31,849 nt of DNA from a virus, in the IMG/VR virus record IMGVR_UViG_3300032081_000306, positions 1 through 31,849 of that record. The stretch is one strand, 5' to 3'. The position numbers were made by a program, and so were the translations under genes. Below are positions 3,327-30,857 of this stretch, in pieces. Every line of letters begins with the position of its first letter. Position 1 is the first letter of the stretch. The notes below the pieces were generated by a model. That model was given only the letters and a program-made list of their open reading frames with translations. It had not been told where the DNA came from and ran no database searches.

Positions 3327-3947
3327 TCAAAATGGTATCTCCCCATCCATGATTGCATTTTTAGATATTCCAATCACGTCTGCATCTGGAAAGTTTTTCT
3401 TTGTTTCAGAGATAAACTGATTAGCATTAAAAAACTGTAAAGCAACTGCGACCTCACGCAATGTGACCAAGTTTAAATCTGGACGCTGCTCTTTCACCGT
3501 CTGCCACGACCTTCCATCGCGCATGATGCCAATCGTCACGCCATCATCGACTTGCACCTCCCAGACATCAGTTGACGCCCTCTGCGCGCCTAACGCCTCC
3601 GCTTCCTTATCCATCGCGACAAGACCTCTCATAGCAATTTCTGCACGCTCGCGCACCATCGCTGGATCGCTATCGTTTATAGCCGCATTCAACTTCGACA
3701 TAGCCGAACCATATTTCATCGCCGTCTCTGCCGAAACCAACTCCGGTAGCATATCAATACCCCACCTCCGATCCATATCCAAAGCCAGCCGATCCAAAGG
3801 AGCCAATGCGTAATCTGCCATAATTGTATTTGGCTCCTGGTCCCCATGAAGCAACCTGTCCGATTTCTTCTGACGAACTGGCCGCCTCGGCTGCTGCGAC
3901 TTCCTCGCCTTCCTTGGCTTCTTCTTATTCACACCACCGATATCCAT
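3327..3947 (-). CDS. Hypothetical protein, 206 aa, basic N-terminus
   Basis: Unknown protein with a strongly basic, probably disordered N-terminus (residues 5-33, rich in Lys/Arg/Gln/Pro) and a mostly helical body. The Ala/Met-rich middle (about 65-120) is followed by a beta-like stretch with VWEVQVDDGVTIGIMRDG. GGAGGA five bases upstream of the ATG is a good ribosome binding site. It is the first gene downstream of the TGTAGAAA array, so its transcription may be affected by whatever binds there. The basic tail could contact nucleic acid; an origin-associated or regulatory role is an inference from position only. Confidence 0.7.
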   Translation of the reverse strand: MDIGGVNKKKPRKARKSQQPRRPVRQKKSDRLLHGDQEPNTIMADYALAPLDRLALDMDRRWGIDMLPELVSAETAMKYGSAMSKLNAAINDSDPAMVRERAEIAMRGLVAMDKEAEALGAQRASTDVWEVQVDDGVTIGIMRDGRSWQTVKEQRPDLNLVTLREVAVALQFFNANQFISETKKNFPDADVIGISKNAIMDGEIPF

Positions 3948-3984
3948 AATCTTCCTCCAATCTTACCTTTTAATATTTCGCGGC

Positions 3985-4190
3985 TGTAGAAATGTAGAAA
4001 CCCTAAAGGGATTTTCTACATTTTCTACACTTCTAGCCTTCTGTAGAAAAGTGTAGAAAAGTGTAGAAATTGTAGAAAACACAACACCTAAAGCATTGAA
4101 AACAAATAACTTCGTCTTTTCTACACATTTCTACAACCACCCTGGTTTTAGCACTCCAAAAACACCCTTGTAGAAAAAGTTTTTTCTACA
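3985..4190. repeat. Array of 12 TGTAGAAA elements; candidate replication origin or multi-operator
   Basis: The 8-mer TGTAGAAA occurs in the top strand at 3985, 3993, 4042, 4052, 4062, 4071 and 4169. Its complement TTTCTACA occurs at 4013, 4022, 4118, 4128 and 4183. Spacings are close to one DNA helical turn in two clusters (4042/4052/4062 and 4118/4128). The first four copies form a large inverted repeat centred on CCCTAAAGGG (4001-4010). The last pair forms a perfect 10-bp-arm palindrome, TGTAGAAAAA-GT-TTTTTCTACA (4169-4190). The array fills almost the whole 279-base gap between the primase-helicase and the 206-aa gene. Iteron arrays next to initiator or primase genes are typical of replication origins; a cooperative repressor-binding region is the alternative. 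Confidence 0.75.
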
Positions 4191-4226
4191 CACTTATCCT
4201 TTGTTTTCATACACATAGCATTTTCA

Positions 4227-6299
4227 TTAAATTCTGCCTTCCTTGGCTGAAATCCAGCAATATCCATCATTTTGCGACATATATCCGCTCGCTAATAGGC
4301 CGTCCAAAGCCTTTTGGAACGCCGCCCTTGGGTTCGTCCCTCCCAGTTTCCCCTTCGCAAAGCTTGTGAAGTCTTGGACGTCAATCGCCCAATATTTTCC
4401 CACTTCTGGCCATCCTGTACCGCCTGAGTTTGGACTTCCAATAGCGTCTTGGCGCATCTGATTGAACGCTTGTATTAGCGCAACCTGGTTCCTGCCCTTT
4501 GGTTTCTTTTTCTTTGCGTCTTGAACATCTAATGCGTCGGCTGCCTCGATTGTACAGGTCGTTACAGGGTCGCCGTCTGCGTCGCTGCCTAACTCATGCA
4601 CTTTCAGCTGAAATACAATCGGAGGTCGTGGCTCTACATCTCTCTGCTTCGTCGCTGTTGCAGTGCGTAGGCCTTCGCTGTTTTCCAGCTCAATCTCGGT
4701 ATCTGTCGCGGCTCTGAGGCTGCTGTGACCCCTCGCGCCTTGCGCTGTATCCTTGCCAGAATGATGGACGATTGAAGCATGAGACTTTGCAAAATCCCGC
4801 AACGCATCAACATTGTTAATAAAGGCCGTCATATCCTCTGGCCCGTTTTCGTTGCCACCCGCCATCGCTCTTGACAGCGTATCAATAAATATAGCCGCCA
4901 TTTTGCCATGCTCTTGCTCTATTTCTTGGCATAGCTCCGCGATTAGCTTTACATCTGCCTCTGGCCTTAATAAATCAACTGGCGCTGCGCGCACTGCCAG
5001 AGGAACTTTGTCTATCTTGTGCGCTTGCATCAGCGCATAAACTCGGTTTCTGAACGCGTTGCCGCCTTCTGTCGCGAGGTATAGCACTGGCCCTTGTTTG
5101 ACCCTGTAACCCTGCCACGGCATTCCCGCTGCAATGTGGAAAGCTATATCTAACGCGAAAAACGACTTACCAACGTTTGAAGGGCCATAAATTACGCTCA
5201 TTTGCTCCGCACCGAGCCACCCTTTAACTAAATAACTTGACGATAGCACTGGCTGCGCCTCTGCTGCCCAAAATATATTTTTCTTTTTATCGGGCGTTGG
5301 CTCTACCAGCGTGTCCGGCTCAAAGCTGATGCTTTGTATCGCCTGTTGCGGCGTTATTTGCGGCTCCGGCGTCCAGCCCTTTGCCCTCGCCCCATCTATG
5401 GCTTGCTGCACCTCTCTGCGCGTGTCGTCCACAGTGTAGGGAGGCTGCGTAAAATTATCTGTTATGGCGTGGATCTCTGTATCGCCCAAGCCTTTTGCAA
5501 CATACGAGCCCACCAATCTCACGACGTTATGATGCCAATCGTCGCCTGACATAATCGCCTGCTGCGCCATTTCCCTGTCCATAGCTTGCTTGCCAAGGTC
5601 GATGCTGAACGCCGCCTCTTCCACGACTTTCTCAGCTTTTGGGAATGCACGCATCATGCGCTCGAACGGCACTGGGTCACGATCCGTACTGAATTGCGTA
5701 CGCATGGTTACAATTTCGTCTGTGTAACCTTTGGCTTTCTTCTTTTCGCTGGGCCACGACACTGTTCCAGCCACACGCATAATCCGAGACGGATTTATAA
5801 CCACCTCATCTGTCTGAAGGCTCTGTGCAATCGACTGCTGCACCTCACGCCACGCCTGGAGGTTGCGAACTGGCTCTTCCAGCCGCCAATAGCAGTGACC
5901 GCGCACAAATGGCTGCGTGCCTGTCTTTACCGACATCGTGAACTTGGGTCCAGCAAACGACAGTATATTCTGCATTGCTCCATCTGTGTCTGCGTCTGCA
6001 AAATTGAAAAACGCGGCCATGATGTCGTCGTCTTTTGCGCCCTTTCCTACGTCTATATTCTCTCCATCAACAGGGTTTATGCACATATAAACGTTTCGAC
6101 CAGCGCTGTTCATTGCCTCTGCGTGATCTACTGCCTCGTCTATCCAATCAAGTGCAAATCTCGCCACGTTTGGCGCACCATTTTCCTGCAGCGCACGTAA
6201 TTCAATCATTGGGTTGCCGTCTAATTCGTCCCAGCCTTCCGTAATTGTCTCTATAAATTGTTTTATTTCTGTCGGTTGTGCTTCTAATGCTGCCATCAT
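4227..6299 (-). CDS. Primase-helicase (AEP-type primase + RecA-like helicase), 690 aa
   Basis: A two-domain replication protein. The N-terminal half (about 30-220) contains FADADTD at 100-106 and an H-CYWRL segment at 135-139, matching the catalytic acidic and RNA-recognition-fold patterns of RepB-like archaeo-eukaryotic primases. The C-terminal half is a RecA-like AAA_25/RepA helicase with Walker A GPSNVGKS at 372-379, Walker B AAIFIDT at 468-474 and a HHSGKD segment at 512-517. A lysine-rich linker (595-602) leads to a small C-terminal winged-helix-like tail. It would unwind and prime DNA at the phage origin; the nearby array is the likely site. It starts at ATG 6299, overlapping the HTH gene stop by 4 nt. 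No DNA polymerase is found in the window. Confidence 0.88.
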   Translation of the reverse strand: MMAALEAQPTEIKQFIETITEGWDELDGNPMIELRALQENGAPNVARFALDWIDEAVDHAEAMNSAGRNVYMCINPVDGENIDVGKGAKDDDIMAAFFNFADADTDGAMQNILSFAGPKFTMSVKTGTQPFVRGHCYWRLEEPVRNLQAWREVQQSIAQSLQTDEVVINPSRIMRVAGTVSWPSEKKKAKGYTDEIVTMRTQFSTDRDPVPFERMMRAFPKAEKVVEEAAFSIDLGKQAMDREMAQQAIMSGDDWHHNVVRLVGSYVAKGLGDTEIHAITDNFTQPPYTVDDTRREVQQAIDGARAKGWTPEPQITPQQAIQSISFEPDTLVEPTPDKKKNIFWAAEAQPVLSSSYLVKGWLGAEQMSVIYGPSNVGKSFFALDIAFHIAAGMPWQGYRVKQGPVLYLATEGGNAFRNRVYALMQAHKIDKVPLAVRAAPVDLLRPEADVKLIAELCQEIEQEHGKMAAIFIDTLSRAMAGGNENGPEDMTAFINNVDALRDFAKSHASIVHHSGKDTAQGARGHSSLRAATDTEIELENSEGLRTATATKQRDVEPRPPIVFQLKVHELGSDADGDPVTTCTIEAADALDVQDAKKKKPKGRNQVALIQAFNQMRQDAIGSPNSGGTGWPEVGKYWAIDVQDFTSFAKGKLGGTNPRAAFQKALDGLLASGYMSQNDGYCWISAKEGRI

Positions 6300-12645: not shown

Positions 12646-13602
12646 TTAGGAAGTTGTGTTGTCGAAGATGCCACCGTTGGCCGCTTCATTTTTGGCACAA
12701 AGCGTTAGCTCGGTTACAACCTGGCGAGTTGTGTTGTCGCCAGTTTTTGCCAAAGCAACGTTCTTGGTTGGACGCAAGCTTGCGACTTCCCACATATCGT
12801 CCTGCATAATCAGGACGTCACGCGAACGGTTTTCACGGCTTGGCATAAACTCTACAGTTCCCCATGGGGTCACGTATACTGCCAGGGACTTGATAACACG
12901 CTCATCGCCAGCTTGTACTGCTGAGCGCTGGTTGTTGTTACCAGTGAAGCCAAGTGCAACATTCATCTGGAATGCTGAGAGGTAAACCGTATCTGGCTTC
13001 CCGCCTTCTTCCCAAATTGACTGCATAACACCGTCAAAACGAGCCTGCGAAAACGCGATGAGAGTAGTTGTCTCATCTGTACGTGCGTCTGCGCCTGTAC
13101 CCGCTGGGTCAGCACCTTCGTTTGCGCCGTGGTTTGTGCTGGTTTTGATCCAAGCCAATGCGCCAGCCATTTCGCGTGCAGTTGTGGAGTTACCCGCAAC
13201 ACGCGCATTGTTGTCGAACATAGCTTTTTCTATGTCGAGCTTCTGCTCTTTTGCTATTTTCAAGGTGGCGAATGCCACTTCTTTTGAGCGACCAGCCTTA
13301 TCCAGACCTTCGTCTGTGTCTGGCACGACAACTGCGTTTTTGAAGATTTGGGTGTAGTTACCCAAGCGAGTTGTAGCAGTGCGAGCTTCGCCAGCAGTCG
13401 CGTCACCTTCAATGTGAGCATTCGCAGCAGAAGCGCGAAGGCTGTCTGTTTGCCACTCAACAAAAGTGTTGCTTGCCGACTTCTTAGCAGATTTGCTGTA
13501 GAACGGAGTTTCCTCCGGGGAGATGTTGTAGATTACTGAGGATAAATCCTCGCGTATGCCGACAGCATCGTAGCTGTCAAATGTATTTGCTGGCTGTGCC
13601 AT
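12646..13602 (-). CDS. Major capsid protein, DUF5309/SU10-type, 318 aa
   Basis: The sequence follows the DUF5309 family closely: an N-terminal REDLSSVIYNISPEETPF (about 17-34), EWQTDSL, a TRLGNYTQIF segment, VYLSAFQMN in the middle, and a C-terminal block with SRDVLIMQDDMWEVASLRP and CAKNEAANGGI. This family is the HK97-fold major head protein of phiEco32/SU10- and HMO-2011-like podoviruses. It assembles with the scaffold encoded directly upstream around the portal. AAGGA precedes the ATG. No protease or decoration domain is fused. The call is secure. Confidence 0.93.
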   Translation of the reverse strand: MAQPANTFDSYDAVGIREDLSSVIYNISPEETPFYSKSAKKSASNTFVEWQTDSLRASAANAHIEGDATAGEARTATTRLGNYTQIFKNAVVVPDTDEGLDKAGRSKEVAFATLKIAKEQKLDIEKAMFDNNARVAGNSTTAREMAGALAWIKTSTNHGANEGADPAGTGADARTDETTTLIAFSQARFDGVMQSIWEEGGKPDTVYLSAFQMNVALGFTGNNNQRSAVQAGDERVIKSLAVYVTPWGTVEFMPSRENRSRDVLIMQDDMWEVASLRPTKNVALAKTGDNTTRQVVTELTLCAKNEAANGGIFDNTTS

Positions 13603-13623
13603 TTGTTTAGTCCTTTCAAAGAC

Positions 13624-14601
13624 TTAGGAGTTGATTATCAAGCCCAATGCGTCATCAATCGAGCCTGTTTTCTGCAAGCGCGTTTGCGCTTTTTTGCGAG
13701 TTGCAGCATTTCCATCGGCAGTTTTCTTTGCACCAGCTTTAATCACAGGTCGGGCCTTTTCACCTTTGGCCGTAACTGATTTGCGCTTTTTCACCAACTC
13801 GCGATATTTCCGAGCGTCGTTCAACGCACGAACATATCTAGCATCAGTCACACGCTGCATCTCATCGGCTGTAAAGCCGTATTCGACGCCAGTTTCGACT
13901 AATGCGTTTTTAATCGCCTGACCCTTTTCTGGGTCTGCGATATCAGGGATATGCTGTGTCAACTCTCTTGCTTGCTCTTGAAGGTAGGCTTGTTGAGCCT
14001 CTTGCTGAGCGTGCATCTGCTGACGTTGCACATTCTGAAGTTGGTGCATTTGCTGATCGTATTGGCCCTTCGCCTCTTCGTAATTGAGCTTTTCTTCCAT
14101 GAACCCGATAGGGTCACTTTCGAATAGCTCTTTAGAAGGTGGGGTTGGGGCTTGTAGACCACCATTTTGCGCTGCCTGGTACAACTGCATGACTTGTTGC
14201 TGTTGCTGCTGTAAAACGGCTGCCTGCTGTTCGATTTGCTTACGCGCCTCGGCAGCTTCTTGGAACCGTTTATTGATTGCCGCTTGACCCGCCGCAGATT
14301 GCTTCAACTGATCCAGTGTCCATTGCTCTTCCTTTCCGTCCACTTTAACGGGGATGAGCGCGTTGGTGTCTTCAGCTTCAACTTCTACTAGGTCTTCGTC
14401 GTCAATTTGGTCATCAATATCTTCGTCGGAGACCTCGACGTCATCTTCGCTCTCGGCTACGGCTTCAATCTCTTCGCCCTGACCGTCGTCTGCAGGCTCT
14501 GTGATTTCTTCCACAGCTTCGCTTAGATTATCACCCTGAACCGCTGGCTCGGATGTTGATAGCAGGCTCTCGGCCGCTTGTTCTAGTGTAGTCGATTCCA
14601 T
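13624..14601 (-). CDS. Scaffolding protein, 325 aa
   Basis: Position (between portal and capsid genes) and composition identify this as the head assembly scaffold. Residues about 20-85 are very acidic (Asp/Glu runs). A glutamine-rich helical region (about 115-215, with a QQQQQQ run) follows. The C-terminal 60 residues are basic (YRELVKKRKSV, GAKKTADGNAATRKKAQTR). Scaffolds of this kind line the inside of the procapsid through a basic C-terminal helix and leave before DNA packaging. No known enzymatic motif is present. A 21-base gap separates it from the capsid gene. Confidence 0.85.
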   Translation of the reverse strand: MESTTLEQAAESLLSTSEPAVQGDNLSEAVEEITEPADDGQGEEIEAVAESEDDVEVSDEDIDDQIDDEDLVEVEAEDTNALIPVKVDGKEEQWTLDQLKQSAAGQAAINKRFQEAAEARKQIEQQAAVLQQQQQQVMQLYQAAQNGGLQAPTPPSKELFESDPIGFMEEKLNYEEAKGQYDQQMHQLQNVQRQQMHAQQEAQQAYLQEQARELTQHIPDIADPEKGQAIKNALVETGVEYGFTADEMQRVTDARYVRALNDARKYRELVKKRKSVTAKGEKARPVIKAGAKKTADGNAATRKKAQTRLQKTGSIDDALGLIINS

Positions 14602-14606
14602 CGGTG

Positions 14607-14849
14607 CTACTTTCTTTGTTTGCGATCTAAAAGTGTCTCTGCTGCTAACGCAGCGTCAAGGTTCACTTCGATCTGGTTTAACGCACGAATTATCGCGTGC
14701 GCCTCTTCACGGGCTTCAACGTCTGAAGCACCACTGTTTGCGAAAACTTGCATCTGGCTTTCGCGAACCTCTTGCACAAACGCCGTAAACGCGCTGTCGT
14801 GTTTCAAACGACGCGCGTCATCGGCTTTTATTCGTATATCAGCGCTCAC
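14607..14849 (-). CDS. Small helical protein between portal and scaffold, 80 aa
   Basis: Unknown helical protein of 80 residues (DDARRLKHDSAFTAFVQEVRESQMQ, then VEAREEAHAIIRALNQIEVNLDAALAAE). Small proteins of this shape occur between portal and scaffold genes in several podoviruses and are probably structural or assembly helpers. Its start overlaps the portal stop by 4 nt, and only five bases separate its stop from the scaffold start, so all three are coupled. Confidence 0.7.
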   Translation of the reverse strand: MSADIRIKADDARRLKHDSAFTAFVQEVRESQMQVFANSGASDVEAREEAHAIIRALNQIEVNLDAALAAETLLDRKQRK

Positions 14850-17005
14850 TGCTGTACGCTTCCTTGTGCCATACCGCCAATCATGCGGTTTTTATCCTGC
14901 TCAGCTTGGATGCGTGCAACATCAACTGCTGTCCCATATTCACCATACACTTTTGCGGCGTCAACTAGAAGGTCTTGAGCCATCTGGTCACGCTTCAAAT
15001 CGTCACTTGCGGCGGCTTTTTGTGCCTCAAGTTGCAGTTTTGCCATATCAGCCTGCATCTTGGTTTGTGCCTTCATTTGCTCTGCCTGCAAGAAGGTAGT
15101 GTTAGGGTCTTGCGCTTGACCTTGCTGTGCTTGAGCCTGCTGCTGCATTTGCAGCATTTGCATCTCAATCTCTGGGGTGATCGGCGCAAAGTAACGATCT
15201 GCGTTGCGGATGCCTGCCACGGCCAACTGGTCGGCCAATGTGTTGCGGATGTTGGTCATGCTGACCAGACCGTTCATTGGCCCGTAGGTCTGATAAACCA
15301 TTGTTTGCATCTGCAATGCTTGGCTGAGTGCCATTGCCTTCTCTTCTTCTCTGCCAGTGCCTAGGCCGACATTGATAGCCACGTCCATTGACTGATCCCA
15401 AACGCGCGGGTCAACAGGCACAAACGACCCATTCATCCGCATCATCTGCTCTTCGTCAATGTTCTTGCTCATCAGGCGCAGCATCAGGCCGAACAGGTCG
15501 CGCATACCGTCTGCAAGGTTGCGCACCATAACCTCAACCTGACCAGCCGCCGCTTGCACAGTTGCTTGCACGGCTGCTTTGGTGGTTGACTGCATGGCGT
15601 CTGGGTCGAGGCCCATTGACGCCCGTGAGACGCCTGTCTTGCTTTCCACTAAACCATCTAGGTAAGTCAGCGCACCAAGTGTCTGACCGGCTGTAAATGG
15701 CACTGACAGGTCTTGTACAGAACCAGCCTGGCGCATTCTCACAACTGCACCAATCTCGTTATTTAAGACATCGTCTATGTTTACTGATCCATCGACAATG
15801 CCGACGCGCGGGTTGTTTGTCATGGCTACGTTATCAAGAATGCCACGCAACACAGATGTTGCAGCGTCCTGATCGTCCATAACGATCTCAGCTAACGATC
15901 TGCCGTAAAAAGCGTGTGGCTCTGGATCTATCTCAAACTTGGCAAACGGGATCTCATCGCAAGGCTCAAAGTCCAGCAGCTCGTATGCTGTGCCGCCGCA
16001 AGTCAGCTTGTGCAAGACAGGAACGCCAGTCCCGTCTGCATCAATTCTCATGTAAGCCTCTGTAATAGTTACGTTTTTCATGGTTGGGTCTTGCTCATCA
16101 GAGTCAGACGTGTCCATGTCATAGCCGCGACGCTCGTATGTCTCGGCCTCTGTCATCTCTGAGCCGCTTTCCAAGCCGCTGAGATTTAGCACTACTTCTG
16201 GGTCAAACCCCATAGCAATCACGTCGCCTGCGCGCATATCTGTGCGGTGCGCTGTGATATATGCGTCGTCCAACGACCGAGCATCACGGTTAATGAAGAA
16301 CTCTTCTGGTGGAATGCTTTCAATGCACAGCTCTCCGCGCTCTTTCTGGCGGCTTAGTTTTACGCTGTGAATAGGCATTTCAACTTCCATGCCCATTTCG
16401 TCCATTGATATTGTCATCTCAATGCTATGTTCGATGACTGTAACTTCATCATCGTCGATCAGATATGCGTATTCATCATCAGACAGGTCTGTGAATGTGA
16501 ATATCTCTGCCTCTGGGTACATCATCCAGTATGCTTTAACGATGCCCTGCTTCTTGACTAAGGCGTCTTGGAAGGCGTCGTTAAGTACACGGTATCCGTT
16601 TAGGCGTGTGAACTCATGGTGCATGAACTCAGTGGCTTGTTCAGCCATTCCAACGTCCTCTGGGCCTCTTGGGACGAACTCAACTGGCTTGGCTGTACTT
16701 AGGAATATACGCATCAGGCTAGGCTTAACCGAGCGCACAGTATCCCGAACCTTAGTCGCCACGACCTTGCTGCGCCCGTCCTCATAACCCAGATCGGACT
16801 CGCCATCGTAGTAGCGCTGTGCCTTTATGCGGTCTTCACTGATTTCGCTTTCAATGAAGTCTACAGCGTCGGATATGGCGCTTTGGACGATGCCTTCGAT
16901 CTCTGTGCGAGACTTTGCCTTAAACGTGCTTTCTTCTTCCTCGACTTCTTCGATTTCGATTTCAGCGCCTTCAAGTATCTCTTCGATCATGTCTTCTGGT
17001 TCCAT
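14846..17005 (-). CDS. Portal protein (P22-like podovirus type), 719 aa
   Basis: Large protein with an acidic N-terminus (1-26). The typical podovirus portal region has FIESEISEDRIKAQRYYDGE (about 51-70), SKVVATKVRDTVRSVKPSLMRIFLST (78-104), DALVKKQGIVKAYW (147-160) and the G-R-S-LAE-I-V block. The C-terminus is a long Gln/Met-rich helix (about 610-700), like the barrel of P22 portals. Length is normal for the class. The dodecamer forms the DNA channel and docks terminase. Gene order portal, small protein, scaffold, capsid is canonical, and the neighbours agree. Confidence 0.92.
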   Translation of the reverse strand: MEPEDMIEEILEGAEIEIEEVEEEESTFKAKSRTEIEGIVQSAISDAVDFIESEISEDRIKAQRYYDGESDLGYEDGRSKVVATKVRDTVRSVKPSLMRIFLSTAKPVEFVPRGPEDVGMAEQATEFMHHEFTRLNGYRVLNDAFQDALVKKQGIVKAYWMMYPEAEIFTFTDLSDDEYAYLIDDDEVTVIEHSIEMTISMDEMGMEVEMPIHSVKLSRQKERGELCIESIPPEEFFINRDARSLDDAYITAHRTDMRAGDVIAMGFDPEVVLNLSGLESGSEMTEAETYERRGYDMDTSDSDEQDPTMKNVTITEAYMRIDADGTGVPVLHKLTCGGTAYELLDFEPCDEIPFAKFEIDPEPHAFYGRSLAEIVMDDQDAATSVLRGILDNVAMTNNPRVGIVDGSVNIDDVLNNEIGAVVRMRQAGSVQDLSVPFTAGQTLGALTYLDGLVESKTGVSRASMGLDPDAMQSTTKAAVQATVQAAAGQVEVMVRNLADGMRDLFGLMLRLMSKNIDEEQMMRMNGSFVPVDPRVWDQSMDVAINVGLGTGREEEKAMALSQALQMQTMVYQTYGPMNGLVSMTNIRNTLADQLAVAGIRNADRYFAPITPEIEMQMLQMQQQAQAQQGQAQDPNTTFLQAEQMKAQTKMQADMAKLQLEAQKAAASDDLKRDQMAQDLLVDAAKVYGEYGTAVDVARIQAEQDKNRMIGGMAQGSVQQ

Positions 17006-19660: not shown

Positions 19661-21266
19661 TTTCGTAAGCCTTCAAACGATCTAGAACATTTGGTGCAAT
19701 CACCAAACCGCCGACGCCTGCTTCGGCTACTTCTGGCTCAAGCCGCTTGATTAAAGATTTGTAATCGTCAAGCAAAGGCGAAACCTGTCTAATGCTCTGT
19801 TGAGCCGCTGCCTTATCAGTTGCCGAGAACTTACCGCCGACAACAGCATTTGCTGCTTTTAAAGAGGCCTCAATCATTCGCACTATTTCGTTTGCTTTAT
19901 CTAAAGCCTTACCTTTGCCCGTTGATATTTCTGATGGGGAAATGGTTAAATCTCTTTGTATCATTTCCCTAGTCAAGTTAGACGGGCGACCTGGAAACTC
20001 TGCCGCAAGACCTAGTGAGGTTCTTGTTGCTAAAGAACGAAGAATTGTTGAGGCTTTTGCAATATCATCGGCTGGTTGACCACCCCCGAACGCGTCCATG
20101 ACAGTGTTCATAATGTTAGCACCAAAGCCAGAAATACCAAAAGATCCCGGCACGTTTGCGCCTACGAAGGAGTCTACGGGTTCTTCCGTAACCTCTTCAG
20201 GAGCAACTTCTTCAGTAAGATTACCAGGAGCCATTTTAGCCAAATCAACAACAACAACCTCCCCCGTTATAGGGTCTTTCGATGGTACGAGGCGACGGTC
20301 TGCAATTCCAATTGCTGTGTCTCTAGGAACCCCTGTCGCCATAAGCCTTTGTATCTGCATCTCCTTTGCACTTGCTTCTCCAGGTTTAGCAAAGGCAATC
20401 TTCAAAGCAGATACAGGATCACCACCCGCGTTCAAAAAGGCAATCGCCTGCTCCGACTGAGGCGTACCCATTTTGCTAATAGCCTCCATAGTTTTATTCG
20501 TATCTCGCCTTGCAGCCCGTCTGTTAGCCACAGCCGCCGCTGGTTCATCCAAACCCATTATGCCCATCTTACCAAAAGCGACAGCCAAGTCTGCCAGACG
20601 ATCTTTGAAGGTGTCACGATTGTAGAAGCGCTGACCAGTTTCGCCTTCAGCTCCTTCTTGCATTTTCTGAATGCCAAAATCTGCGAGTAAGCCACGCGGT
20701 CTTTGTTGCTGCATCATTTGGCTATTCTCCTTAATATTTGCATCCGCAAGTCCTGTAATATTTGCATCCGCAAGTCCTATTGGCTGCTTACCAATGGCGC
20801 GCATTGCGTCGTCGGCTACGAGTTGATTGCTGCTGCGACCAGCGTCAGCTTTTCCGAACAAGTGCGAACCAATGCGGGTCCAATCACCGCCCTGCTTTTC
20901 CGCACCCCAAGATGGATTTGATATGTCTGGGTTGTAGAAGTGGGTTGCTCCGCTTGTCGGATCTTTATAATTTCCAGACAAGAGATTGTCGGCAACTTGA
21001 TACGCCTCACGACTTGGAGCCAGGTTTATCATATCCTGACCTTGCGCGCCGCCTGCATAGTTTGTTTCGCTATTCCAGGGAGAAAACTGACCTGGCTTTA
21101 AGATAACGTCTTGAACCCCGCCGCCATAACCTGACGATTTTGCCCTGTTCATTATGACCGATCCAGCAGCAAGCATCCCGCCAACGCCTTGGTTTCCAGC
21201 CTCGGCCTGTAGCGTCTTAGCTAGTATGTCTCGGTCTGATAAACCTAAACGCTCCTTGAGTGTCAT
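19653..21266 (-). CDS. Virion-associated SleB-type cell-wall hydrolase, 537 aa
   Basis: The first 140 residues form a Hydrolase_2 (SleB) domain: ILAKTLQAEAGNQGVGGMLAA with the catalytic Glu at 22, SVIMNRA, DVILKPGQFSPWN, and the C-terminal DPTSGATHFYNP...WG motif. It would cut glycan strands when the virion enters the cell. The rest (about 150-537) is a Gln/Ala-rich helical region with Pro-rich parts, probably the structural part. Within it an 8-residue unit is tandemly repeated (GLADANIT, then GLADANIK). It starts in the stop of the S74 protein gene (TGATG) and is followed by the ejection protein. Confidence 0.82.
   Translation of the reverse strand: MTLKERLGLSDRDILAKTLQAEAGNQGVGGMLAAGSVIMNRAKSSGYGGGVQDVILKPGQFSPWNSETNYAGGAQGQDMINLAPSREAYQVADNLLSGNYKDPTSGATHFYNPDISNPSWGAEKQGGDWTRIGSHLFGKADAGRSSNQLVADDAMRAIGKQPIGLADANITGLADANIKENSQMMQQQRPRGLLADFGIQKMQEGAEGETGQRFYNRDTFKDRLADLAVAFGKMGIMGLDEPAAAVANRRAARRDTNKTMEAISKMGTPQSEQAIAFLNAGGDPVSALKIAFAKPGEASAKEMQIQRLMATGVPRDTAIGIADRRLVPSKDPITGEVVVVDLAKMAPGNLTEEVAPEEVTEEPVDSFVGANVPGSFGISGFGANIMNTVMDAFGGGQPADDIAKASTILRSLATRTSLGLAAEFPGRPSNLTREMIQRDLTISPSEISTGKGKALDKANEIVRMIEASLKAANAVVGGKFSATDKAAAQQSIRQVSPLLDDYKSLIKRLEPEVAEAGVGGLVIAPNVLDRLKAYENE
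20732..20778 (-). repeat. Tandem 24-bp unit inside the SleB gene
   Basis: Two copies of a 23-bp sequence (20732-20754 and 20756-20778, offset 24 bp) are identical and encode the back-to-back octapeptides GLADANIT and GLADANIK in the linker after the SleB domain. The unit is in frame and looks like a recent slippage duplication. Confidence 0.9.
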
Positions 21267-22765
21267 CAGGCTGCTCCCAACTCCGAAACTAACCCAGCGT
21301 AATTAACGCGGAGGTATCCATCATCAGCCCGTGAAACCAAGTGCGGATGCGTCGCTTGAAGCTCTTGAGCCATGACGCCGATTGTTGGTTGTGCTGGATC
21401 TGCGACCCGCTTACCTTCGTCGTTCCAATCCCATGAGTAGACGTTGATGCCTGCCTCTTTGCCGAGCGGCTTGATGTTGGTCTTGAGGCGTTCGTCTGAC
21501 ATGCCGATAGCAGTTGCGCCGAGAGAGAGATAATCAAACAGGCCAGGTTGCCTAGACGATGTACGTGTCTCTGGAACTGGCGTAACTCCAAGAGCCGCGA
21601 GTGGCGCTTGAAGCGCGGCATTTGGTGCGCCTGCGTAGCCTGCGAACTGACCGCGAGCAGCGTCGATAAGAGCCTGCTGTAAACCTTGCTGCAACAAGCC
21701 TTGCTGCATTTGCTGCTGCTGGATTGATTGACCAGTGCTAAATGCCTGCTGCCCCAACGAACCCATTTGCTGCGCGGCAGACATGCGTGCTTGATTTGCG
21801 GCAAGTTGGTTCGCAAAGTTTTGCTGCTGCGCCTGCTGCGCTGCTGTTGCGCCATACTGAGCGGCGGCTGTACGTGCGCCGACGTTAGAGGCTTCCATCT
21901 GCTGCAACCTAGCAAGGTTAGCAGCTTGAGCTGCTTGAGCAGAACCAGCGCCATACTGAGCGGCTGCTGTGCGTGCAGCGGCGTTGGCTGCTTCGACGGC
22001 AGAGCGTTGGCCGACATCAAATTGTGCGGCCTGTTGTGCTTGTTGAAAGCCAGACTGTCGCAAGTTTGCAACAGTGTCAGCCGCTTGCTTGGAGAAGCCT
22101 TTTCGCGTCTCAGCGGCTTCTAACGCTTGGCGAGATCCGCCGAATGCGTTGGCTGCTTCTGCTTGCGCGCCCATGACGTTTAACTGTTTCTCTTGCGCGC
22201 CAGCTAAATCTGAAAGCGTGCGGTCAATCACCGCTTGCTGATATGGGCTTTCATATTGTGCAATGTTTGTTGATGCCAACTGCTGCGCCCGTTGCTGGGC
22301 TGGGCCGTATCCAAATCCTTGCTGCATACCGGCTGAACGCTGTTGCGCTGGGGTGTACCCAATCGCTGAAACTGGCGGGGCTTGGAAGCCCATACCCATT
22401 TGCGTGCCTTGCATAGCTTGCTGCAATGCGCCTGCGCTTGCTTGATTTACGTTGAACCCACCAGAGGGCGATAGAGGTGCGTAGCGACCTTGCATTGGGG
22501 CTGGCATTGCAGTCTGCGGTCTAGACATGCCACCTTTGCCGCCAAACATAGGCGGGGTAAAGCTACCTTGTGGACCGCCTAATGAGACGTCGTCAGGCGT
22601 CCTTTTAGGCAGAGGAGGTGGATTTCCAAACCCAAGTGCAGTTATGGGACGAGATACTGGAATGAGGCTACCTTGTGGACCGCCTAATGAGACGTCGTCA
22701 GGCGTCCTTTTAGGCAGAGGAGGTGGATTTCCAAACCCAAGTGCAGTTATGGGACGACTAGCCAT
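21266..22765 (-). CDS. Structural protein with C-terminal S74 chaperone domain, 499 aa
   Basis: N-terminal Pro/Gly-rich region with two identical copies of a 30-residue block (RPITALGFGNPPPLPKR and onward), then a long Gln/Ala-rich coiled-coil-like part (about 130-390). The C-terminal domain is a peptidase S74 intramolecular chaperone: SDERLKT (Ser423, Lys428) and GVMAQELQATHPHLV...Y-L...VNYAGL. S74 domains trimerise, help fibre folding and cleave themselves off before the Ser of the S-D-x-R-L-K motif. The whole protein is probably a virion fibre or an internal protein, since the Gln/Ala-rich part is not the usual beta-fibre. Its start is one base from the stop of the upstream 386-aa gene. 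Confidence 0.75.
   Translation of the reverse strand: MASRPITALGFGNPPPLPKRTPDDVSLGGPQGSLIPVSRPITALGFGNPPPLPKRTPDDVSLGGPQGSFTPPMFGGKGGMSRPQTAMPAPMQGRYAPLSPSGGFNVNQASAGALQQAMQGTQMGMGFQAPPVSAIGYTPAQQRSAGMQQGFGYGPAQQRAQQLASTNIAQYESPYQQAVIDRTLSDLAGAQEKQLNVMGAQAEAANAFGGSRQALEAAETRKGFSKQAADTVANLRQSGFQQAQQAAQFDVGQRSAVEAANAAARTAAAQYGAGSAQAAQAANLARLQQMEASNVGARTAAAQYGATAAQQAQQQNFANQLAANQARMSAAQQMGSLGQQAFSTGQSIQQQQMQQGLLQQGLQQALIDAARGQFAGYAGAPNAALQAPLAALGVTPVPETRTSSRQPGLFDYLSLGATAIGMSDERLKTNIKPLGKEAGINVYSWDWNDEGKRVADPAQPTIGVMAQELQATHPHLVSRADDGYLRVNYAGLVSELGAA
22562..22757 (-). repeat. Perfect 91-bp direct repeat (offset 105 bp) at the start of the S74 structural gene
   Basis: Positions 22562-22652 and 22667-22757 are identical over 91 bases and lie 105 bases apart (35 codons), giving two copies of the block RPITALGFGNPPPLPKR-TPDDVSLGGPQGS. 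The reading frame is kept. The absence of any mismatch points to a very recent duplication or active homogenisation. Confidence 0.95.
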
Positions 22766-29694: not shown

Positions 29695-29970
29695 TCAGCA
29701 GTCCCACGCCCTGCGCGACCAATAGTTCGCGCTTAATTTGCTTGATTTCCCCTTTATACCACCAGAACGCGCACAATACGAACTCTTTCGCGCTGGCTGG
29801 TTTTTCTTAATGGACATATTAGGGTCGCCAAAGTTTATTTTCTTAACAGTGTCGCCTTCAACTGCCAGGACTTCAAACTTCTTTGGCCCACCTCTGCGTG
29901 GCTTGTTTACAGCGGTAAAGCCGTGGCGTTTCTTTGCTGCTTTGACTTTTTCTGCTTTTGTGCGTGCCAT
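29695..29970 (-). CDS. Small basic conserved phage protein with Cys-rich C-terminus, 91 aa
   Basis: The C-terminal half (KKINFGDPNMSIKKN..., then a segment like ...RKSSYCARSGGIKGKSSKLSANYWS-RRAWDC) follows a phage family whose members carry an [FY]-x-[AS]-R-x-x-C/G-x...-x-A-x-YW[SA]-x-x-W pattern. Its function is unknown. It is a basic protein (many Lys/Arg) and lies between the transglycosylase and adaptor genes, a position where small virion or assembly proteins are common. It shares a base with the transglycosylase stop (29970). Confidence 0.7.
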   Translation of the reverse strand: MARTKAEKVKAAKKRHGFTAVNKPRRGGPKKFEVLAVEGDTVKKINFGDPNMSIKKNQPARKSSYCARSGGIKGKSSKLSANYWSRRAWDC

Positions 29971-30857
29971 TAGTATAACAATCCTGTTGCGCGCGGCCTA
30001 GGCCGCATGGATGAAAGAACACCTAAATCTTTAGGTAAATCAAAGCCGAACAAATTTTTAAAGTCATCGCCGACCTTACTAGCGTATTCACGTTGTTCTT
30101 TTTTATCCATTGCAGCGGCAGAACCAACACGATCAAACTTGCCAGGACCAGCGTTATACGCTGTCAATGTAGCTTCCGTGTCTCCACCATACTTTGTCAT
30201 AAGCTCACGCATGTAAGCCTCGCCAATAATGCTGTTTATTACAGGGTCTTTTAAAAGCCCCACAGCAGACTCTAATGTACGATCATTAACATCAAATCCT
30301 AACTCTTCGGCAACATCAAAAACCTTTGGCACATTTTCTCTCATGCCCTTCATCGCATCTTTTGGCATAATGCCAAGCAAACCAACAGCCCCCCCATCTG
30401 ATACTTTGCTAGGGTCATTGCTGCTTTCACGCATAGCAACAGCCTGCATCAGCTTTTCAAATGTTAAAAGATCATCGGCCATTACGCCTTGGCTTTCTTC
30501 AATAAGTGGGTTCTTAGACGCACCACCGCTCTTGCTGCGATCTTCAGCAGCAGACACAGCGGCCTTAATTGTATCATACCGGGGGAATTTTAGGCCAGTA
30601 GACTTCTCGTAATCTTCAGCAGCATTCCAAGCCCTGTCACCCTTTAAGAAACGAGGGTTGCCGGTCTTTTCCTCAAACCATATCTGAGGAATGTTCCATG
30701 CTTTACCTTCTGGTGAACGCTCACTAGCAAGATACTCAGTTGCCCTAGAGCCTCCAACAGTCTCAACAGGCTTATGCTTATTTGGGTCAAAGGGGACCAG
30801 TCTAGGCATAGAAGCAGCCTGCATTAGCTTTTCAAATGTCAAAAGATCATCGGCCAT
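29970..30857 (-). CDS. Lytic transglycosylase (SLT domain) with internal duplication, 295 aa
   Basis: The SLT domain is in the second half: AMRESSNDPSKV with catalytic Glu144, GGAVGLLGIMP (155-165), and AYNAGPGK (233-240). It cuts the glycan strand with formation of 1,6-anhydro-muramic acid and is probably carried in the virion for infection. The N-terminal 125 residues repeat the segment MADDLLTFEKLMQA, which also occurs at residues 126-139, and this is seen in the DNA as a 61-bp direct repeat. The second start, ATG at 30482, would yield a 170-aa SLT protein, so two forms may be made. Residues 18-110 are an additional domain with no recognised family. Confidence 0.8.
   Translation of the reverse strand: MADDLLTFEKLMQAASMPRLVPFDPNKHKPVETVGGSRATEYLASERSPEGKAWNIPQIWFEEKTGNPRFLKGDRAWNAAEDYEKSTGLKFPRYDTIKAAVSAAEDRSKSGGASKNPLIEESQGVMADDLLTFEKLMQAVAMRESSNDPSKVSDGGAVGLLGIMPKDAMKGMRENVPKVFDVAEELGFDVNDRTLESAVGLLKDPVINSIIGEAYMRELMTKYGGDTEATLTAYNAGPGKFDRVGSAAAMDKKEQREYASKVGDDFKNLFGFDLPKDLGVLSSMRPRPRATGLLY

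Follow-up and report, generated by a model that had tools for sequence, protein, structure and literature searches.

In phage P4, with its ori and crr, the alpha protein unites primase, helicase and origin binding in a single polypeptide, and the iterons are short. In RSF1010, the iterons are long direct repeats that are bound by a separate protein, RepC. In the staphylococcal pathogenicity islands (SaPIs), the C-terminal domain of the Rep helicase is reported to recognise iterons situated directly downstream of its own gene (PMC7581432), and in the phage-inducible islands (PICIs) of Staphylococcus and Gram-negative bacteria generally the origin likewise lies downstream of the helicase gene (PMC6092414). 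In the PLE satellites of Vibrio cholerae the DNA-binding domain of the initiator RepA co-varies in a modular way with the iterons of ori, with repeated swaps, and the origin-cutting nuclease Odn of ICP1, which mimics the PLE initiator, has been proposed to select for these swaps (PMC8263062). Here we describe an array of short repeats behind a primase-helicase gene in a stretch of viral DNA of 31,849 bases (hereafter the window). We consider it probable, at roughly 0.83, that the intergenic gap holding this array serves as the origin of replication and that its repeats are iterons which the primase-helicase recognises through its C-terminal domain.

The repeat array and its gene context

The gap, which is the whole putative origin, measures 279 bp (3948-4226), lies between two minus-strand genes and has an AT content of 66%, versus 52% for the window. 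As the first-pass annotation of this DNA had reported, it contains twelve copies of TGTAGAAA in both orientations: the window holds 12 exact matches (7 on the plus and 5 on the minus strand), every one of them at 3985-4190, whereas 0.94 would be expected by chance over the whole window and the maximum among 100 shuffles was 3. No second cluster of TGTAGAAA was found elsewhere in the window. Since a second 8-mer, CGCTGCAA, is equally frequent in the window (12 copies), the copy number of TGTAGAAA is less striking than its clustering.

The iterons, each an exact match to TGTAGAAA, are numbered here in the reading order of the helicase gene. Iteron 1 (4183-4190, minus strand) is paired with an inverted partner, iteron 2 (4169-4176, plus strand), an extra pair that occurs in the window and L049 types. 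The stretch spanned by this pair (4169-4190) had been called a perfect 22-bp palindrome, which overstates the case: 20 of its 22 positions are self-complementary, in two 10-bp arms with a 2-bp centre. Iterons 3 (4128-4135) and 4 (4118-4125), both on the minus strand, are followed by an IHF-like site, TTTCAATGCTTTA (4089-4101, minus strand), with one mismatch to the consensus WATCAANNNNTTR, and then by four plus-strand iterons, 5 (4071-4078), 6 (4062-4069), 7 (4052-4059) and 8 (4042-4049). The remaining four form the inverted repeat noticed at the outset, with iterons 9 (4022-4029) and 10 (4013-4020) on the minus strand and iterons 11 (3993-4000) and 12 (3985-3992) on the plus strand, around a central palindrome-like element, CCCTAAAGGG (4001-4010), whose CCTWWAGG core is retained in relatives. 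The direct clusters described as spaced by about 10 bp are likewise present, at 8-10 bp. Two sets of iterons thus flank a spacer with the IHF-like site; a distinct AT-rich element was not found within the gap.

The primase-helicase (690 aa; 4227-6299, minus strand) consists of a PrimPol-like N-terminus, which matches the PrimPol AEP domain 6zp9 in the PDB (E 0.006), a RepA-type helicase core (residues 354-518 match Pfam AAA_25, E 1.3e-36; residues 355-526 match RSF1010 RepA, 1g8y, E 6e-4, phmmer against the PDB) and a C-terminal domain. On the other side of the gap a 206-aa protein is encoded (3327-3947, minus strand), which has a basic N-terminus and for which neither a Pfam family above the cut-off nor a PHROG match was found. 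As both genes are on the minus strand, the array follows the 3' end of the primase-helicase gene and precedes the 5' end of the gene for the 206-aa protein.

The neighbouring genes form a replication/recombination module: an AlpA-type HTH protein, a PD-(D/E)XK nuclease and a Holliday junction resolvase are encoded around the primase-helicase, and a 224-aa protein occupies the position of the annotated ssDNA-binding protein in the CRP phages (see below). A DNA polymerase gene was not recognised among the twenty proteins scanned, and the record is possibly a fragment. Elsewhere in the window, a DNA methyltransferase gene (1939-2664; phrog_757, E 1.3e-72) lies on the strand opposite to the replication genes, and virion genes, including those for the portal (phrog_1216) and the major head protein (phrog_1328), are found at 12646-17005. 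Two further proteins contain duplications: a 499-aa protein (21266-22765) has a near-perfect N-terminal tandem duplication with SRPITALGFGNPPPLPKRTPDDVSLGGPQGS occurring twice, and a 295-aa protein (29970-30857), which matches lytic tail or transglycosylase families, has an internal duplication of MADDLLTFEKLMQA.

Different words at the same locus in relatives

Five Roseobacter phage isolates (CRP-811, 821, 822, 823 and 831) share the local gene order of the window, and the corresponding gap measures 175-186 bp in them. The paper describing these phages (PMC12629253) mentions neither iterons nor repeats, and words beginning with "origin" occur in it once, in another sense. The first-pass annotation had proposed to search for TGTAGAAA at the corresponding locus of relatives; the literal word is absent from the CRP gaps, but the layout persists. 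CRP-821, 822 and 831 carry TGTATAAA and CRP-811 and 823 carry ACTACAAA, in each case in 10 or 11 copies (at most one mismatch) arranged around a common centre, CCCTTTAGGG. The window's own TGTAGAAA array recurs in 8 metagenome contigs. As a family marker, literal TGTAGAAA was discarded, no such array being found beyond the closest contigs.

Scans of viral contigs and bacterial genomes yielded 194 regions that follow a related helicase gene, 93 of them non-redundant. A significantly repeated word, defined as a 7-mer present at least five times at a level reached by at most 1 of 100 shuffles, occurs just past the helicase stop codon in 67 of these 93, whereas five copies are reached in just 19 (2%) of 872 windows of 300 bp drawn at random from these loci. 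The words of the 67 regions form 32 word groups; apart from those already mentioned, the words at such loci include TGTCCTAAA, ATGTGAAA, TGTATGAAA, GTCGGAAA, GCGGAGGAAA, GCGTACCA and CGGGACA. Two more cultured phages, Idiomarinaceae phage 1N2-2 and Rhizobium phage 16-3, have the same arrangement of helicase and array. In phage 16-3 (L102), the word CGTGACA occurs 14 times in the region after p101 (4129-4564), together with ACTCCTTTAGGAGT and a site that matches the IHF consensus exactly, and a cultured temperate phage may, therefore, share this type of origin. A clear array was not found in the other 26 of the 93 non-redundant regions. Nor was one detected behind the related helicases of four other phages (L103-L106), namely Caulobacter phage GB2A, Rhizobium phage RHph_X2_26, a Vibrio phage and one from an uncultured source. 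A second putative origin type was encountered behind a different AAA_25 helicase (L020, 3799-3967; L022, 4558-4686), with the words CCACAGTT or CCACACCTT, which stand in inverted orientation on either side of a (TA)n centre.

The array could alternatively be an operator, through which a repressor or activator would control the 206-aa gene and the genes beyond it. The array does lie directly 5' of the 206-aa gene and of the same-strand genes that follow. However, the array keeps its place behind the helicase gene although the gene that comes next varies by lineage (the 206-aa gene, a DUF6378-like gene or others), a search of 3700-4400 found neither a sigma-70-like promoter nor a terminator, and twelve phased sites together with an IHF-like site exceed what is usual for an operator. 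We consider an operator improbable as the explanation of the array, although the array may have a dual role, as origin and as regulator.

A shared chassis of spacing, IHF-like site and palindrome

Among the closer relatives the words differ, but their spacing is near-constant and follows, with > and < for the two orientations, the scheme > -10- > -24- IHF-like site -22- < -9- < -10- < -11- < -20- > -9- > -20- < -8- <, in which the CCTWWAGG palindrome sits between the last two iteron pairs. Compared with this chassis the window has one additional inverted pair, which precedes the rest. Of 21 spacers examined, 16 contain a site that departs from the IHF consensus at no more than one position (seven of them at none), whereas shuffling leads one to expect 1.7, and the offset of the IHF-like site within the spacer is the same across relatives; in the TGTATAAA and GTCGGAAA types the site has two mismatches. 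The match to the consensus suggests that IHF may bind there.

The iteron-origin reading put forward from the window alone is supported by this comparison, as in many phages an array with conserved spacing, an IHF-like site and a central palindrome lies behind the same kind of helicase. The GC-skew check suggested along with it did not turn out in its favour, since neither the window nor the genomes of CRP-811, 823 and 831 show an inflection at the array; the skew follows gene strand in such small genomes, so that this test has low power. A DnaA-dependent origin was also considered and rejected, as exact DnaA boxes are present in just 29 of the 194 gaps; in the window gap the DnaA-box matches all have one mismatch and are mostly the iterons themselves.

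Co-variation of the word with the C-terminal domain of the helicase

The first-pass annotation had named the primase-helicase, the 206-aa protein and the AlpA-type protein as the nearest candidates to bind the repeats, and comparison of the relatives separates these. Among four CRP genomes, 811 and 823 have one word in common, and 821 and 831 another. The helicases of CRP-821 and CRP-823, two phages with different words, show 92-100% identity over approximately their first 600 residues but 69-82% in the remainder. A stepwise scan of the whole CRP genomes places the split by word type at the array and roughly the final hundred residues of the helicase; the same split is seen at one accessory locus (near 10.8 kb in CRP-811) and, for the 821/831 pair, in differences in gene content. 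The small block of accessory genes that divides the CRP phages as the word does (L098, 10604-11278; L099, 9401-9933) was searched for DNA-binding families and none was found.

Two more loci behave in a similar way. L020 is 88-100% identical to the window in the primase N-terminus, compared with about 20% in the helicase and C-terminus, and its word, CCACAGTT, is unrelated. L039 has a helicase core that is nearest to that of L030, while its C-terminal domain and word are those of L031. The CRP, L020 and L039 cases are three separate exchanges. Over 33 loci with 17 words, which were assigned by hand after the sequences had been seen, the mean identity of the C-terminal domain is 0.83 for loci with the same word and 0.40 for loci with different words, and identity in this domain predicts a shared word with an AUC of 0.989, versus 0.941 for the core.

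The domain in question comprises approximately residues 600-690 (about 90 aa; 4230-4502, minus strand). Its apparent order of elements is helix, strand, helix, helix, wing; profile searches gave weak winged-helix matches, and no convincing match was obtained in the PDB or Pfam. Residues 655-664 (TNPRAAFQKA; 4308-4337, minus strand) are nearly invariant within one word and variable across words: between loci with the same word 5% of these positions differ, compared with 25% in the remainder of the domain, whereas between loci with different words the values are 36% and 28%. Among stretches of ten columns, 658-667 scores best (p = 0.0024 when columns are permuted), a value to be taken as a guide only because the pairs are non-independent. 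The apparent order of elements suggests that the domain, which putatively binds the iterons, is a winged helix with residues 655-664 as its recognition helix. Since array and domain are adjacent, their joint transfer is partly expected from linkage alone, but the pattern in the recognition helix, including the contrasts L059/L061 and L068/L072, points to more than linkage. L068 and L071, which share one word, differ at three of these ten residues.

Binding of the iterons by the 206-aa or the AlpA-type protein instead of the helicase would fit with their location, as both genes are within about 2.5 kb, with the HTH of the AlpA-type protein and with the basic N-terminus of the 206-aa protein. 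The latter, however, remains nearly constant while the word changes: over the first 150 residues its homologues are 88-98% identical between CRP-821 and CRP-823, and 80-88% identical between L020 and the window. In many lineages a homologue was not detected after the array at all, and the CRP phages have no annotated AlpA gene at the corresponding place before the helicase. The 206-aa protein is, therefore, not the determinant of the iteron word, and either protein as the binder seems to us a very remote prospect; the co-variation points to the primase-helicase and, within it, to the C-terminal domain only. It is very improbable that the repeats act at the RNA level, by giving structure to the 3' part of the helicase mRNA, where inverted copies could pair and joint changes of the words would keep the pairing, or that they are a packaging site. 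Same-orientation copies at a spacing of 9-10 bp, an IHF-like site and co-variation with a protein domain would serve no obvious purpose in RNA, and the terminase genes of the CRP genomes are several kilobases away in the circular map.

A model for origin recognition and its implications

If the gap is an iteron origin, the primase-helicase encoded directly before it would bind the copies of the 8-bp word through its C-terminal domain. The fixed spacing, together with a bend at the IHF-like site between the iteron blocks, would set the bound protomers in register, and these would then assemble the helicase around the AT-rich gap, so that the enzyme would load itself. The RepA-type helicase would open the strands and the fused PrimPol-like domain would prime synthesis. 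Array and C-terminal domain would together constitute a specificity module: word and domain would be exchanged between lineages, or change in concert, with no effect on array geometry or on the other parts of the helicase.

As relatives retain one layout at one place but each lineage has its own word, which changes in step with the C-terminal end of the helicase, this looks like a natural lock-and-key library for origin recognition by replication proteins. If the proposal is true, the C-terminal domain and array provide about 30 natural pairings of protein and DNA word, many of them on one scaffold, which would open the specificity code of origin recognition to direct tests, as well as the question of how an array of at least ten sites can switch its word as a whole. 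It would also supply candidate origin positions for the phage family of PMC12629253. A more far-reaching idea, which we put forward tentatively and hold to be rather doubtful, is that a fixed chassis with an interchangeable word matched to a recognition helix represents a widespread, undescribed class of origins, in which the word would be a self/non-self tag, selected to change, between coinfecting phages, satellites or origin-directed nucleases.

Comparison with known systems

The similarity to RSF1010, whose RepA is a hexameric helicase, lies here in the helicase core: its RepC and long direct iterons contrast with the present words, which measure 7-10 bp and occur in either orientation, and a Pfam scan of ten neighbours found no RepC-like protein. 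Initiators of the iteron-plasmid type (Rep_3 or RepA_N) gave no Pfam match among the neighbours scanned either. The P4 alpha system, as described, is set apart by its helicase family and its iteron word. PLE offers a parallel in its modular co-variation but differs in having a RepA_N initiator, which is not a helicase, an N-terminal binding domain and three iterons of about 30 bp (PMC8263062). An origin-cutting nuclease as the selective cause of word turnover in the present phages is plausible, although this is speculation.

The closest likeness is to the SaPI/PICI origins, which combine an initiator helicase, sometimes fused to a primase, with short iterons directly 3' of its gene whose sequences are specific to the element. 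An array immediately 3' of the initiator-helicase gene is what we found in the window and in 67 of the 93 non-redundant regions. The fixed chassis, with two words, the IHF-like site, four words in the opposite orientation, two in the first, the palindrome and two again inverted, does not appear in the consulted passages on SaPI/PICI origins. SaPI Reps are given as D5/Primase_Cterm or DUF927 helicases (PMC7581432), whereas the present helicase is of the AAA_25, RSF1010-RepA type and has no D5 or DUF927 match in Pfam; SaPIs and PICIs are, moreover, satellites or islands, whereas the present carriers are full phages or prophage-like loci. Should our reading be correct, the layout of a helicase followed by its iterons would extend from phage satellites to ordinary marine roseobacter phages and to prophage-like loci in alphaproteobacteria. 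We do not class the system as a member of the SaPI/PICI group because its helicase comes from another family, but it may well work as the SaPI/PICI origins do.
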